Assembly (NCBI GenBank): GCA_013360395.1
Contig: JABWBQ010000008.1
Coordinates: 1-64,000, forward strand
Reading direction: 5' to 3'
DNA length: 64,000 bases
From: Flavobacteriales bacterium
Lineage (GTDB): Bacteria; Bacteroidota; Bacteroidia; Flavobacteriales_F; PHOS-HE28
The notes beneath the pieces were generated by a model that did no database searches, had not been told where the DNA came from, and was given only the letters and a program-made list of their open reading frames with translations. Shown here piece by piece: positions 1,163 to 19,195 of this stretch (positions are counted from its first letter, which is position 1; each line of letters starts with the position of its first letter). Position numbers and translations under genes: made by a program.

Positions 1163-1792
1163 ATGAAGACCGCGATCGCACTTTCCGCCGCAGCCCTGCT
1201 GGGCATGGCCCCGCACGACGTACTGAAGGACCTGAACCTGGGCGACCCGCTGCCGCTGCCCGACCACCGCATGCTGGACGTGAGCGGCCAGGAGAAGAGC
1301 CTGAAGGAGCTGGCCGGCCGCAACGGTCTGTTGGTGATCTTCACCTGCAACACCTGTCCCTTCGTGGTGGGTACCGAGGACAGCGAAGGCTGGGAGGGGC
1401 GTTACCCCGGCCTGGGCGTCCTGGCCCGGCAGCACGGCGTGGGCATGGCGCTGGTGAACAGCAACGAGGCCAAGCGCACGGCGGGCGATGGCTACGAGGA
1501 CATGCGCAAGCGGTACGAGGAGAAGGGCTACAACCACTACTACCTGCTGGACCAGGGCCACCGGGTGGCCGATGCCTTCGCGGCCCGCACCACCCCGCAC
1601 GTGTTCCTGTTCGACAAGGACCTCAAGCTGGTGTACAAGGGTGCGGTGGACGACCGCGTGGAGAAGGCGGCGGACGTGAAGCAGCCCTTCCTGCGCAACG
1701 CCATCGTCAACCTGGCCGAAGGCCGCGCGATCGATCCTGCGGTGACGCGCAACATCGGCTGCAGCATCAAGCGCGTGGAGCACACGCATTGA
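1163..1792 (+). CDS. Exported thioredoxin-fold (redoxin) protein
   Basis: A 209-residue protein of the thioredoxin/AhpC-TSA superfamily. A short hydrophobic N-terminus (about residues 1-16) suggests export. The active site is C62-N-T-C65 followed by PFV, at the end of the first beta strand, and a cis-proline segment (TTPHVFLFD) comes later. The C-terminus has the GCSIKR motif seen in Bacteroidota redoxins related to TlpA/ResA. It is probably a periplasmic thiol-disulfide oxidoreductase or peroxiredoxin-like enzyme; the substrate cannot be read from sequence. The ATG at 1163 gives the signal-like start; the long upstream in-frame extension lies opposite the sigma gene and is not coding. A hairpin follows its stop, so it looks monocistronic. 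Confidence 0.8.
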   Translation: MKTAIALSAAALLGMAPHDVLKDLNLGDPLPLPDHRMLDVSGQEKSLKELAGRNGLLVIFTCNTCPFVVGTEDSEGWEGRYPGLGVLARQHGVGMALVNSNEAKRTAGDGYEDMRKRYEEKGYNHYYLLDQGHRVADAFAARTTPHVFLFDKDLKLVYKGAVDDRVEKAADVKQPFLRNAIVNLAEGRAIDPAVTRNIGCSIKRVEHTH

Positions 1793-14009: not shown

Positions 14010-14621
14010 TCAGGGCTTCACGGGCCGCGGTCGGTCGTCCCCGGCCAGGGTCCAGCCGCCGTTCTCCACCACGGCGCGCAGCACCACCAGGAACTCCTCC
14101 TTCTGCTTCGCGGCGGCTTCGAAGAGCCCGCTCTGCGGCAGCCGTTGCTCGATGCGGGCCTTGGCCTGGGCCTGCATGCGGGTGTGGTCCGCGGCGCTGA
14201 AATCGGCGAAGGCCCCCTCCTGCAGGTCGAAATACTTCACGTCGTGCTCCAGGGCCAGGAGCTTCGGTGCGGCCATGCCGGTGAGGCGCACCGTGCGCGT
14301 GGCCTCGTCGAAGGAGAGCCCCAGCCCGTCCAGGTCGTAGCCCACCGAGGCGCGGGCCTTCACCAGCAGGATGGCCTGCTTGCGGTTCCAGCCCATGTTC
14401 CTGGTCCAGTCGAACCACGCCGCGCTGTTGTCGCTGTAGGTGAACACTTCGCTGAGGTCGCCCTCCACCGTCACCAGCTTCAGCACCGGGCGGATGCGCT
14501 CCAACAACACGGTCTCCGTCACCTGTTCGGCCGGTGCGTCGGGCCGGTACGCCTCGCGGGTGAGGAAGAATACCAGCAGGGCGACGCCCAGCAGGACCAG
14601 GAGGCCGGTGATACGTTTCAT
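14010..14621 (-). CDS. DUF4230 family membrane-anchored protein
   Basis: A 203-residue protein with one N-terminal transmembrane helix (about residues 4-20). The rest is a soluble domain with the DUF4230 pattern: a LKLVTVEGDLSEVFTYSD segment, then KQAILLVKARASVGYDLDGL and the FSAADHTRMQAQAKARIEQRL helix. The function of the family is unknown; it is found in many Bacteroidota and Firmicutes as a signal-anchored extracytoplasmic protein. The ATG at 14621 is preceded at 10 nt by the -7-like box CACCTTTG. It is divergently transcribed from the redoxin lipoprotein gene, with 45 bp between starts. Confidence 0.8.
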   Translation of the reverse strand: MKRITGLLVLLGVALLVFFLTREAYRPDAPAEQVTETVLLERIRPVLKLVTVEGDLSEVFTYSDNSAAWFDWTRNMGWNRKQAILLVKARASVGYDLDGLGLSFDEATRTVRLTGMAAPKLLALEHDVKYFDLQEGAFADFSAADHTRMQAQAKARIEQRLPQSGLFEAAAKQKEEFLVVLRAVVENGGWTLAGDDRPRPVKP

Positions 14622-14666: not shown

Positions 14667-15263
14667 ATGCGCCGTGGGCCGATCCTTGCCGCTTGCACCG
14701 GATGGCTGGTGCTGGCGGGCTGCGGCGCGGGGCCACGGGTGGACCTGGAGGTGCTGCGCGCCGGTCGTTTCACCCTGGCGGACGGCACGCAGGCCGATGG
14801 CCGTGAACTGTTCGGCGGGGGCCACACCCTGGTGCTGACGCTCGATCCCGAATGCCCCCTGTGCCTGATGCACGCTCCGGAGCTGGCCGGGATCGTCCCC
14901 GACACGGGGTTGCGCATCGTGGGCCTTTACGCCTCGCCCTACATCGTGGCCGACAGTGTGCGGGCGTTCGCCTTGCGCCACGGGTTCGTGTTCCCGCAGG
15001 TGCTTGATCCGGATTGCACCGTGGCCGCCGCCCTGCACGCCGTAATGACCCCCGAGGCCTTTCTGCTCGACGCCGGGGGCACGGTGCTGTACCGCGGCGC
15101 CATCGACGACCGGGCCGTGCGCGCCGGCCGCAAGAAGCCCCAGGCCGCCCGGCACCACCTGCGCGACGCCCTGGAGGCCGTACGGCGTGGCCAGGCACCG
15201 CCGCAGCCGCAGGTGCGGGCCGTGGGCTGCTTTCTGGAATGCACGGAAGTGGAGGTGCCATGA
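14667..15263 (+). CDS. Redoxin-domain lipoprotein (copper-enzyme partner)
   Basis: A 198-residue lipoprotein (lipobox LAG-C19) with a thioredoxin-like fold. The redox pair is C63-P-L-C66 in DPECPLCLMHAPEL, and the cis-proline region is VMTPEAFLLD. The C-terminal AVGCFLECTE recalls the GC-[LI] tail of redoxins linked to copper monooxygenases. It probably acts in the periplasm as a SCO/TlpA-like thiol protein that reduces or metallates its neighbour. The gene overlaps the cytochrome c/copper monooxygenase gene by ATGA, which makes joint function likely. In some bacteria these parts occur as one polypeptide, to my recollection; here they are split. Confidence 0.8.
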   Translation: MRRGPILAACTGWLVLAGCGAGPRVDLEVLRAGRFTLADGTQADGRELFGGGHTLVLTLDPECPLCLMHAPELAGIVPDTGLRIVGLYASPYIVADSVRAFALRHGFVFPQVLDPDCTVAAALHAVMTPEAFLLDAGGTVLYRGAIDDRAVRAGRKKPQAARHHLRDALEAVRRGQAPPQPQVRAVGCFLECTEVEVP

Positions 15264-16690
15264 GGGGGATGGCCATCATCGTGGTCCTTGCGGCCTGGCT
15301 GGCCCTGCTGCCCGGCTGTGGTCCGGTGGACCCGGTGGATGCCGTGACGGACCTGCCCGACACGGTGACCTTCGCCGGGCACATCGCCCCGCTGGTGCGC
15401 ACGCACTGCATGCCATGCCACAGCCCGGGCCACGCCGGCCCCTTCGCGCTCACCACCTATGCCGAGGTCCGGCGCAAGGCGCGCACCATCCGGCATGTCA
15501 CGCGGGAACGCTTCATGCCGCCCTGGCCTGCGGACACGGGGTACAGCCGGTTCGTGGGCGAGCGGGTGCTCACCGCCAGGCAGATCGCGCTCATCGGGCG
15601 CTGGGTGGAACAGGGCATGCCCCCGGGCGATACGGCCGCGCTGCCCCCGCCCCCGGTCGTCGAGGAGGCCGACGGCCTGGGCCCGCCGGACCTGGTGGTT
15701 CCCGTGCCGGGCACCTTCACCATCCCGGGTGATGGGCGCGACCGCTTCATCATCGCCAAGGCGCCCTTCGCGCTGGCGCAGGACACCTTCCTGCGGGCGG
15801 TGGCCTTCGTGCCGGGGAACCGGCGGCTGGTGCACCACATGAACGGTGCGCTCATCAACTATCCCGAGGGGGCCAAGGCCGATGTCTTCGCCGGAAGCGC
15901 CTTCCTGGATGCCGAGCAGCAGGGCGGCCCGGCGGCCTTCGCCCGCCTGGGCCTGGCCAACGACGACGGCAGCTGGCCGCCGCTGGTGCCCAGCGTGGTG
16001 AACTACCTGCCGGGGCTGGCGCCTTTGGTGCTGCCCGAGGGGCTGGGCGGGCTCTACCTGGCGCGCAAGGGCGCCTTTCTGCTCAACACGGTGCACTACG
16101 GCCCCAGCGACCGGGAGGCCGAAGACCGCAGCCGTTTCCACCTGTGGTTCGCGCCGCGTGCGCCGGAACGTCCGTTGCAGGAGCTCGCCCTGGGCAGCAC
16201 GCACACGCCCGTGGTGCCGCCCCTGCACCTGGCCCCCGGCGAGGTGCGCACGTTCACCACGCGCCTCACTGTGCCCAAGGCCATCAGCGTGCTGGCGGTG
16301 AACCCCCACATGCACCTGCTGGGCACGCAATTCACGGCCTACGCGCTGCGCGGCACGGACACCATACCGCTGGTGCGGATCCGCGACTGGGATTTCCGCT
16401 GGCAGTACAGCTACACCTTCAGGCATCCGGTCGTATTGCAGGCCGGGGATGTCATCGTGGCCGAGGGCAGCTTCGACAACACAGCGGAGAACCCGGACCA
16501 GCCCTTCGATCCGCCGCGCGAGGTGCAGGGTCGCGACAGCCGGTTCATGCGCACCACCGATGAGATGTTCCAGTTCTTCGTCATTTACGTGGATCACCAG
16601 GCGGGGGATGAGGACGTGAAGCTGGGTGTGAGCGGGGAGGGGCGAGCAGCGCGCGACCGCCTACACGCGAACGCACCGCCTGGCGAGTGA
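15260..16690 (+). CDS. Cytochrome c / copper type II ascorbate-dependent monooxygenase-like protein
   Basis: A 476-residue lipoprotein (signal at about 1-20, probable lipid Cys20) with two parts. First is a c-type heme motif, C50-M-P-C53-H54, in a short cytochrome domain to about residue 125. Second is a region resembling peptidylglycine alpha-hydroxylating monooxygenase (PHM) cores. H192-H193 and H279 would form one copper site; H350-x-H352 and M436 would form the other. The order H-H, H, H-x-H, M matches the two-copper layout of that family. Substrate unknown; electrons could come through the attached heme. It starts by ATGA overlap with the redoxin gene. The last 25 residues or so are low complexity. 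Confidence 0.78.
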   Translation: MRGMAIIVVLAAWLALLPGCGPVDPVDAVTDLPDTVTFAGHIAPLVRTHCMPCHSPGHAGPFALTTYAEVRRKARTIRHVTRERFMPPWPADTGYSRFVGERVLTARQIALIGRWVEQGMPPGDTAALPPPPVVEEADGLGPPDLVVPVPGTFTIPGDGRDRFIIAKAPFALAQDTFLRAVAFVPGNRRLVHHMNGALINYPEGAKADVFAGSAFLDAEQQGGPAAFARLGLANDDGSWPPLVPSVVNYLPGLAPLVLPEGLGGLYLARKGAFLLNTVHYGPSDREAEDRSRFHLWFAPRAPERPLQELALGSTHTPVVPPLHLAPGEVRTFTTRLTVPKAISVLAVNPHMHLLGTQFTAYALRGTDTIPLVRIRDWDFRWQYSYTFRHPVVLQAGDVIVAEGSFDNTAENPDQPFDPPREVQGRDSRFMRTTDEMFQFFVIYVDHQAGDEDVKLGVSGEGRAARDRLHANAPPGE

Positions 16691-16724
16691 ATGCCCGTCC
16701 GGTCCTTCACGCGCCACTCCCCGC

Positions 16725-17639
16725 TCAAACCTGCGCCAGCGGATCGGGCTCGGTGACCTCGCTCGAGCGCTTGCCGCGCTGCAGCCAGCCATTCACGAAG
16801 AGGCAGCCCAGGATGAGGGCGAAGCCCAGGTAGGACCCCACGGTGAGCCGTTCCTCCTCGCCCCAGATCAGCAGGGCGATGACGATGGTGTACACGGGCT
16901 CCAGGTTCACGGTGAGCATCACGGTGAAGGGGCTGAGCTGGCGCATGACGGCGATGCCGGCCACGAAGGCGAACGTGGTGCAGACCAGGCCCAGCAACAA
17001 CTGGTAGAGGATGTCGCTGGCGGGCAGCCGCCACAGCGGCGGGGCCAGGTCGCCGGTGAACAGGCCGTACAGGGCCAGTGCGGCCACCACGCTGAGCATC
17101 TCGTAGAAGCCGATGCGCAGGGCGTTGTCACGCTGGACGAGCACGCCGTTCACCACGTTGAACCAGGCGCTGAGCAGGGCGCTGAGGGTGGCCACGGCGA
17201 TGCCCAGCCGGTGCTGCACCTCCAGCCCGAAGATGAGCAGCAGGGCGGCCACCACCACCACACCGAGCACCACCTCGCTCACGCGGATGCGGCGCTTGAA
17301 CCAGAAGGGCTCCATGAGCGCGGTGAACACCGTGCTGGTGCTGAGACAGGCCGCGGCGATGCTGGCGGTGCTGAGCTTGATGGCCCCGTAGAAGGTGATC
17401 CAGTGGCCCAGGATGATGAGGCCCACCAGCAGGTAGTTCACCAGGCCCGGGGTGCGTGGGGAGAGGCTGCGGCGCATCACCAGGGCGGTGGCCGCCAGGC
17501 CCAGCATGCCGATCACCGTGCGCGTGTACACCAGGTGCAGCGTGGGCTGCTGGATCAGCTTGCCCAGGATGCCCGTGAAGCCCCACACGAACACCGTGAC
17601 GTGCAGCAGCACGAGTGCCTGGCGTTGGGCGTTGGGCAT
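16725..17639 (-). CDS. EamA/DMT family transporter
   Basis: A 304-residue membrane protein with ten predicted spans built as two EamA halves. The first half holds FVWGFTGILGKLI and FYGAIKLSTASIAAACLSTSTVFTALMEPFWFKRR; the second holds CTTFAFVAGIAVMRQLSPFTVMLTVNLEPVYTIVIALLIWGE, the usual drug/metabolite transporter signature. It would sit in the inner membrane and export or import a small metabolite; the substrate cannot be predicted. It ends head-to-tail 6 bp from the DUF502 gene upstream and is probably in one unit with it. Confidence 0.88.
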   Translation of the reverse strand: MPNAQRQALVLLHVTVFVWGFTGILGKLIQQPTLHLVYTRTVIGMLGLAATALVMRRSLSPRTPGLVNYLLVGLIILGHWITFYGAIKLSTASIAAACLSTSTVFTALMEPFWFKRRIRVSEVVLGVVVVAALLLIFGLEVQHRLGIAVATLSALLSAWFNVVNGVLVQRDNALRIGFYEMLSVVAALALYGLFTGDLAPPLWRLPASDILYQLLLGLVCTTFAFVAGIAVMRQLSPFTVMLTVNLEPVYTIVIALLIWGEEERLTVGSYLGFALILGCLFVNGWLQRGKRSSEVTEPDPLAQV

Positions 17640-18430: not shown

Positions 18431-19195
18431 TCACGGCAGCAGCGCGTAGAGCACGGGACGGCTGGGGGCGGCGTCGTTGATCCAGTGGGCCACCTGCAGC
18501 TCCAGCAGGTACCGGCCATCGGGCACGCTGTCGGGCACGTGGATCAGTTCGGTGATGGTGCGCGCCGTGTCCACCGTGGCCGGGAAATCCCAGAAGGCGT
18601 GGTGCGCGGCCAGCACACCGCCGTCCTCCTCGCGGTCCACGCTGGGCAGGTCCACCAGCAGGTGCTTGACACCGATGCTGCGCAGCCAGGCCGTGGCGGT
18701 GCTCTGCAGGTAGGGCGGGTTGGAGCCGCACCAGTCGCGTGCCTCCTTGCCGGAGGCGTTGGGGAGGGTGCGCAGCACCAGGGCTTCGCGGGGCCGTTCG
18801 TCCAGCGTATGGCGCAACTGCTCCAGGGTGATGAGGAGGTCGGTGCGACCGTCCGGGGCGCGGCGCTGTTCGGGCCGCAGGCTGATCACTTCCGCCGTGA
18901 AGAAGTAGCGGTCGAGCATCCCGCCCACCGGGGTGACGGCGGCGTCCAGGTGGCCCACGCTCTCGGTGTGCGTGCCGTGGCCGTGGGGGTTGACGACCAC
19001 GGTGCGGAAGTTGAGCGGTGCGCCCGCGCTCACGGCGTAGGTGCGGTCACCGGCCACCACGGGCTCCATGCGCACGGGGTCCACGTACCAGGCGCGCAGC
19101 CGGCCCTCCCCGGCCTGCAACGGCAGGCTCAGGTCCACGGGGCGGGCCAGGTCCACGCGGAACTTGCGTCCGTGGTGTTCGATCTCGGCGATCAT
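18431..19195 (-). CDS. Cyclase family metal-dependent hydrolase
   Basis: A 254-residue protein of the cyclase/kynurenine formamidase (KynB-like) superfamily. The metal-binding signature is H73-G-T-H76-T-E-x-x-x-H82 in NPHGHGTHTESVGH. Further family features are PVDLSLPLQ at the N-terminus and GVKHLLVDLPSVD near residue 175. These enzymes hydrolyse amides or lactones such as N-formylkynurenine; the real substrate here is not evident. It starts with an ATGA overlap on the stop of hemW, so the two are co-translated, although no shared pathway is obvious. Confidence 0.82.
   Translation of the reverse strand: MIAEIEHHGRKFRVDLARPVDLSLPLQAGEGRLRAWYVDPVRMEPVVAGDRTYAVSAGAPLNFRTVVVNPHGHGTHTESVGHLDAAVTPVGGMLDRYFFTAEVISLRPEQRRAPDGRTDLLITLEQLRHTLDERPREALVLRTLPNASGKEARDWCGSNPPYLQSTATAWLRSIGVKHLLVDLPSVDREEDGGVLAAHHAFWDFPATVDTARTITELIHVPDSVPDGRYLLELQVAHWINDAAPSRPVLYALLP

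Follow-up and report, generated by a model that had tools for sequence, protein, structure and literature searches.

The window (the whole stretch of 64,000 nucleotides analysed here) carries two overlapping genes whose products are a redoxin lipoprotein and, judging from its predicted structure, a true relative of PHM and DBH, the animal copper monooxygenases that make peptide hormones and noradrenaline. The pairing of the two genes is conserved. Taken as a whole, the pair probably codes a copper monooxygenase of the cell envelope that works free of ascorbate, fed by its own cytochrome domain, with the redoxin as an accessory protein. The features on which this reading is built are listed in Table 1.

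Table 1. Features of the redoxin/copper enzyme gene pair (positions in the window; residues numbered within each protein)
Feature	Position	Strand	Basis
Redoxin lipoprotein, 198 aa	14667..15263	+	ORF; thioredoxin-like fold of the 2cvb/3u5r/2ywi kind
Redoxin C63-P-L-C66	14853..14864	+	C63 in 50/50 and Cys at C66 in 37/50 upstream-type redoxins
Redoxin C188 in C-terminal GC motif, likely partner of C63	15228..15230	+	Cys in 50/50
ATGA overlap of both genes (ATG at 15260, TGA at 15261-15263)	15260..15263	+	Sequence
Heme/copper lipoprotein, 476 aa: N-terminal c-type heme domain and PHM/DBH-type domain (residues ~141-450)	15260..16690	+	ORF, PF03712, model
Heme c motif C50-M-P-C53-H54	15407..15421	+	Invariant in 80/80 aligned proteins
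M86-P-P-W-P; M86 likely second heme ligand	15515..15529	+	M86 in 80/80
H192-H193, CuH; align with rat PHM H107-H108	15833..15838	+	Profile alignment, 80/80
H279, CuH; aligns with rat PHM H172	16094..16096	+	Profile alignment, 80/80
H350-M-H352, CuM; align with rat PHM H242-x-H244	16307..16315	+	Profile alignment, 80/80
M436, CuM; aligns with rat PHM M314	16565..16567	+	Profile alignment, 80/80

Both reading frames, their coordinates and the ATGA overlap joining them had been proposed by a first-pass annotation made from the DNA letters alone and were borne out, as were the single CxxCH motif and the numbering of the six His and Met residues that it had assigned to two copper sites. Signal sequences and lipoboxes were read from both translations (LAGC with C19 in the redoxin, LPGC with C20 in the copper enzyme). 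Further along the window, a putative cyclase is coded at 18434-19195 on the minus strand (PF04199, E 6e-14); the PF04199 family includes arylformamidases.

The copper enzyme matches PF03712, the C-terminal copper monooxygenase domain, in Pfam (E 1.1e-7, 31.9 bits, cut-off 23), and this profile recognises 73 of 80 family members at E 0.01. The N-terminal copper domain PF01082 gave no match for the window enzyme in the Pfam search, and its score for a paralogue coded in the same genome (28.8 bits, E 1.5e-6) lies just below the cut-off of 30. The heme domain matches PF13442 weakly and below cut-off (E 0.004); a weak likeness (E 1.2) of this domain to hydrazine synthase was set aside. No useful name was obtained from the NCBIfam search, PHM was not reached in PDB sequence searches with the enzyme alone or with its profile, and the searches made among plasmids and viral contigs found no relatives. 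The relation to PHM was reached by fold comparison together with profile alignment to rat PHM. The AlphaFold model of the 476-residue protein, built on 80 sequences, has a pLDDT of 88.1 and a pTM of 0.82. In a Foldseek comparison to the PDB every one of its top 31 matches is a PHM or DBH entry (E 5e-14 to 1e-9), unrelated folds starting only at 4.5e-5. VIA-align places DBH best (Z 20.3, 282 residues aligned, rmsd 3.5), followed by PHM entries (Z 16.0-20.0), while the best other fold scores 7.6. The predicted model thus displays the double jelly-roll fold of PHM, and the PHM-type assignment of the first-pass annotation, with both copper sites, stands at the level of fold and of alignment.

The profile alignment to rat PHM brings all six copper ligands into register, with an E of 8.8e-4 and a probability of only 23 % against a single-sequence template. 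Conservation was assessed in an alignment of 80 proteins, composed of the window protein and those of 79 of 80 related loci (L084, whose N-terminal part is missing, was excluded). The three-His CuH site (H192, H193, H279) and the CuM site made of the HxH pair and a Met (H350, H352, M436) are kept in 80/80 proteins, and so are C50, C53, H54 and M86 of the heme domain, in sequences whose identity to the window protein goes down to 42 %. The same ten residues are invariant in an 18-member alignment including six members of the distant paralogue group (34-37 % identical there). A residue set invariant in all 80 aligned proteins is not due to chance. Seven more residues of the enzyme (N195, W377, F379, W381, Q382, Y385 and Q438) are likewise found in 80/80.

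The paralogue of the same genome (L002; contig 24, 25546-26712, minus strand) is 39 % identical to the window enzyme. Its gene lies between tadA-like and recJ-like genes (names given by eye) and has no adjacent redoxin, and this paralogue group of the heme-PHM protein occurs across the genus. Its C-terminal tail was considered as a T9SS secretion tail, which NCBIfam did not confirm and which is not claimed.

Two readings of the copper domain compete with that of a monooxygenase acting on some other substrate. The first-pass annotation had named hydroxylation of glycine-extended peptides as the known reaction of PHM, and a PHM-like amidating enzyme that, like PAM in animals, hydroxylates exported peptides at their C-terminal glycine would share with our protein the fold and the copper ligands, PHM being similar to DBH in fold score. 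Such a reaction was not supported here. Rat PHM residues R240, N316 and Y318, which we take to be those binding the peptide carboxylate, align in the profile alignment with N348, Q438 and F440; the corresponding columns hold N in 71/80 proteins, Q in 80/80 and I or F, respectively. As the carboxylate residues are not kept, peptide amidation is not supported. In addition, the structural disulfides of PHM are all missing from the window protein, and the redoxin is the only conserved neighbour, so that no lyase or precursor peptide gene is shared: within the neighbourhoods, a partner lyase (PAL) was not seen as a shared neighbour, clusters other than the redoxin being common to at most 11 of 80 loci. 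Amidation is therefore very improbable, and, with only the redoxin conserved around the enzyme, gene context offers no clue to the substrate. The other competing reading is that the PHM domain is degenerate and serves as a non-catalytic binder of copper or substrate, leaving the heme as the working part. No activity is known for the protein, and a similar fold is found in non-oxygenases such as PNGase F, both in our fold comparison and in a study of double jelly-roll proteins (PMC8812541). Against this stand the six copper ligands and the seven additional residues named above, all invariant in 80/80 proteins despite identities as low as 42 %, which make a degenerate domain improbable. A copper monooxygenase remains our preferred reading of the protein.

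The only cysteines of the mature window enzyme, besides the lipidated C20, are C50 and C53 of the heme motif, and 43 of the 80 aligned enzymes, once past the N-terminus, likewise contain no cysteine but those two. In the core of rat PHM there are ten cysteines. With no cysteine besides the heme pair in the mature protein, the redoxin cannot form disulfides there, and this role was excluded for the window enzyme. The CxxCH motif is kept with or without a redoxin in 80/80 proteins (again leaving aside the truncated L084, whose sequence does not reach the motif); because it is never lost in the set, the heme belongs to the work of the enzyme. M86, by its conservation, is probably the second axial ligand. 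The genome codes a cytochrome c assembly protein (PF01578 twice on C38) and a DsbD-type protein; ResB (PF05140) was not found in it.

The coupling of the two genes was followed in the best 80 of at least 529 enzyme relatives obtained from a scan of genome contigs; by record title, all 80 are from Bacteroidota. The redoxin gene is directly upstream on the same strand in 50 of these best 80 loci, a redoxin of another type (2cvb-like, CNTC) is directly downstream in 6, a redoxin is found neither upstream nor directly downstream in 20, and the remaining 4 have too little DNA. Clustering of the 670 neighbouring reading frames of the 80 loci gave no other conserved partner: after the redoxin, the next cluster is present in 11 loci, and further conserved neighbours were rejected. 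Note that the redoxin cluster itself holds 49 loci and that the profile count (50 upstream, 6 downstream) was used instead. The coupling is also observed within the genus. Both proteins were searched in 44 congeneric genomes, 20 of which code an enzyme orthologue (>500 bits). Of these 20 genomes, 18 give a strong match to the redoxin (E 8e-33 or better), as against none of the 24 without orthologue (Fisher p 2e-10, the genomes of one genus not being independent); one of the 24 carries a fragment of the enzyme where a contig begins. Among 60 genomes of the class, a redoxin match lies at most 1000 bases from 19 of 56 PHM-type genes, 17 times upstream on the same strand and twice divergently (G052 contig 28, ~15225-17020; G057 contig 18, ~166104-167927). 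On G093 contig 7, G056 contig 47 and G099 contig 1, copper enzyme genes were observed side by side on one strand. The redoxin proposed by the first-pass annotation as a coupled partner is thus a conserved one. It is not strictly needed, since it is missing at 20 of the 80 loci, in 2 of the 20 congeneric genomes with the enzyme and beside the paralogue. In two congeneric loci lacking the redoxin (L008 and L010) the enzyme gene adjoins a DUF4230 gene (identified by eye), the same neighbour that in the window, at 14013-14618 on the minus strand, is divergent from the gene pair.

In a quick tree of the enzyme almost every group includes members with the upstream redoxin, and its presence or absence changes at least 10 times. 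This suits an old association of redoxin and enzyme with repeated loss, a quick tree being unable to tell gain from loss. The six loci with a downstream redoxin of the other type (L091, L093, L104, L105, L108 and L111) fall in one group from which the upstream redoxin is missing, and it looks as if the latter was replaced there. The window carries a second redoxin gene (1163-1789, plus strand; PF08534, E 8e-10) of this same 2cvb-like type (CNTC...GC). Taken broadly, the redoxin family occurs in 151 of the 198 genomes that make up the phylum sample, in most cases not close to an enzyme of this kind, and the enzyme profile A1 is matched in 17 of the 198. These counts speak against a close tie between the two.

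Fusions of redoxin, heme and PHM domains occur in Planctomycetes and Acidobacteria. The survey of split and fused forms that the first-pass annotation had called for was run within Bacteroidota and gave separate genes throughout: a redoxin is fused in the enzyme's own frame in 0/80 loci (best 80 of at least 529). Long redoxin frames were also looked for, and none exceeds 596 aa in the class sample, nor 483 aa among the phylum-sample matches listed.

The redoxin has a match to PF00578 (AhpC-TSA, E 9e-7), and its model has a pLDDT of 92.5 and a pTM of 0.87. Its closest fold matches, which cover nearly the full length of the redoxin, are 2cvb from Thermus (Z 21.4), 3u5r from Sinorhizobium (20.3) and 2ywi from Geobacillus (20.2), the kinds of DsbF, ResA and CcmG coming next (Z 12.7-15.3). 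The profile search gave the same three proteins first (E 3e-31 to 3e-27; 2cvb 3.4e-31). The whole redoxin aligns with this 2cvb type (Thermus thermophilus 2cvb/2ywo, Sinorhizobium SMc02350 3u5r, Geobacillus 2ywi), including the C-terminal extension and the CP and GC motifs, so that the fold is present in its whole length. The C-x-x-C sequence named by the first-pass annotation is there, as C63-P-L-C66, but it is not the conserved pair. Among the 50 upstream-type redoxins, C63 and the C-terminal C188 are Cys in 50/50, and position 66 holds Cys in 37 of them, Ser in 9 and Thr in 4; C63 and C188 are hence probably the working pair. In 2cvb, 2ywi and the second redoxin type of these genomes a Cys is found three places before C63, a position taken by Ser in 3u5r; the PHM-linked redoxins differ in having no Cys there (0/50) and mostly C66 instead.

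The working of the system may be pictured as follows. The second gene would give an exported, lipid-anchored copper monooxygenase of PHM/DBH fold that holds two copper ions, one at each of CuH and CuM, with a c-type cytochrome domain (the CxxCH motif and probably M86) ahead of them. Each turnover of PHM or DBH needs two electrons, which ascorbate supplies; for a bacterium, a cytochrome with covalent heme built into the same polypeptide would be the obvious replacement. The heme would take electrons from the pool of periplasmic cytochromes and pass them singly to the coppers, and CuM would activate O2 for hydroxylation of a C-H bond of the substrate. The redoxin would be an accessory thiol-redox protein acting via C63 and C188. 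Because the enzyme has no other cysteines, it would most likely either hold the CxxC of the heme motif in reduced form so that heme can be attached, or help to load or reduce copper.

These options for the redoxin can be weighed further. Proteins like ResA, CcmG and TlpA are thiol reductases of cytochrome c maturation whose partner is a c-type cytochrome, and it is possible, if on the doubtful side, that the redoxin is a reductase of this CcmG/ResA kind dedicated to the CxxC of the partner's heme motif rather than a copper or electron factor. The mature enzyme offers no thiol target other than the heme pair, and ResA, CcmG and DsbE are among the relatives of the redoxin by sequence or fold. 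Its nearest solved relatives are nevertheless the 2cvb group; ResA, CcmG and TlpA share the thioredoxin fold and match its core only, leaving the C-terminal GC extension unaligned (Z 12.7-14.3 vs 21.4). Moreover, its conserved pair is C63/C188 and not the CxxC, and the same-genome paralogue as well as 20 of the best 80 loci (of at least 529) have the heme site with no redoxin adjacent. A function as copper chaperone or copper reductase of the PHM domain, comparable to that of SCO for CuA oxidases, would agree with the two invariant cysteines and with the coupling to a copper enzyme. SCO1 is a thioredoxin-type domain serving copper enzymes, with CxxxC and a metal-binding His as what we take to be its hallmarks. 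Neither is found in the redoxin, which has a CxxC with variable C66 (Cys in 37/50) and, among the 50 upstream-type redoxins, no conserved His (best column 32/50); with no His conserved, it is not SCO-like. The genome has two separate SCO1-family matches elsewhere. SCO-type proteins are also absent among the 50 fold matches listed for the redoxin, an absence that carries no weight against SCO. The chaperone function appears somewhat unlikely. Still less likely is that the redoxin removes peroxide or re-reduces sites oxidised in uncoupled turnover, or serves during turnover as a carrier of electrons from DsbD to the heme. The AhpC-TSA/redoxin profile match, the occurrence of peroxiredoxin Q among the fold matches and the DsbD-type protein of the genome speak for such a role. 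Peroxiredoxin Q, however, scores Z 12.6-14 vs 21.4 for 2cvb, and V56 and D60 occupy in the window redoxin the places of P and T in P-x3-(T/S)-x2-C, presumably the peroxiredoxin motif. The preferred reading thus keeps the redoxin as an accessory protein, probably working through C63 and C188.

The fold and the copper sites of the family are known from the animal enzymes. Rat PHM (PDB 1opm, 1sdw) has the same fold (Z 16-20) with both copper sites in register, and differs in that the bacterial protein adds the heme c domain, is a lipoprotein, has no structural disulfides, does not keep the carboxylate residues and has no lyase as shared neighbour. Human DBH (PDB 4zel), the best VIA match, has like the window enzyme an extra N-terminal domain before the copper core. 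This domain is DOMON in DBH. In the window enzyme it is the CxxCH heme domain, and the protein is a bacterial lipoprotein without disulfide cysteines. To our knowledge, a heme c domain, the lipoprotein form, the absence of disulfides and a redoxin partner are not features of animal PHM or DBH. Full-text literature searches, judged by title and start of abstract and lying mostly outside subscription papers, listed nothing on a heme-PHM protein from bacteria. The 2022 double jelly-roll study (PMC8812541) describes PHM as widely distributed among eukaryotes, and the bacterial branch therefore seems to have been little noticed.

It may be, at slightly less than even odds, that the enzymes described here form a widespread bacterial branch of the PHM/DBH family in which a built-in cytochrome c stands in for ascorbate and a redoxin with C63 and C188 is dedicated to the enzyme, that is, a self-wired dicopper oxygenase of the envelope. 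The handling of electrons and oxygen by PHM and DBH, whose two copper ions lie far apart, is an old question, and most work on it has used the animal enzymes with ascorbate as reductant. In a bacterial relative with its own heme, the reductant could be controlled via one defined site and, if the reading is true, the protein would be a natural system for counting electrons singly into CuH and CuM. Its substrate would moreover be of a class with no known counterpart in animals. The enzyme or its paralogue is present in 31 of 45 congeneric genomes and the enzyme type in 33 of 60 genomes of the class, which points to an unassigned oxygenase in many Bacteroidota.
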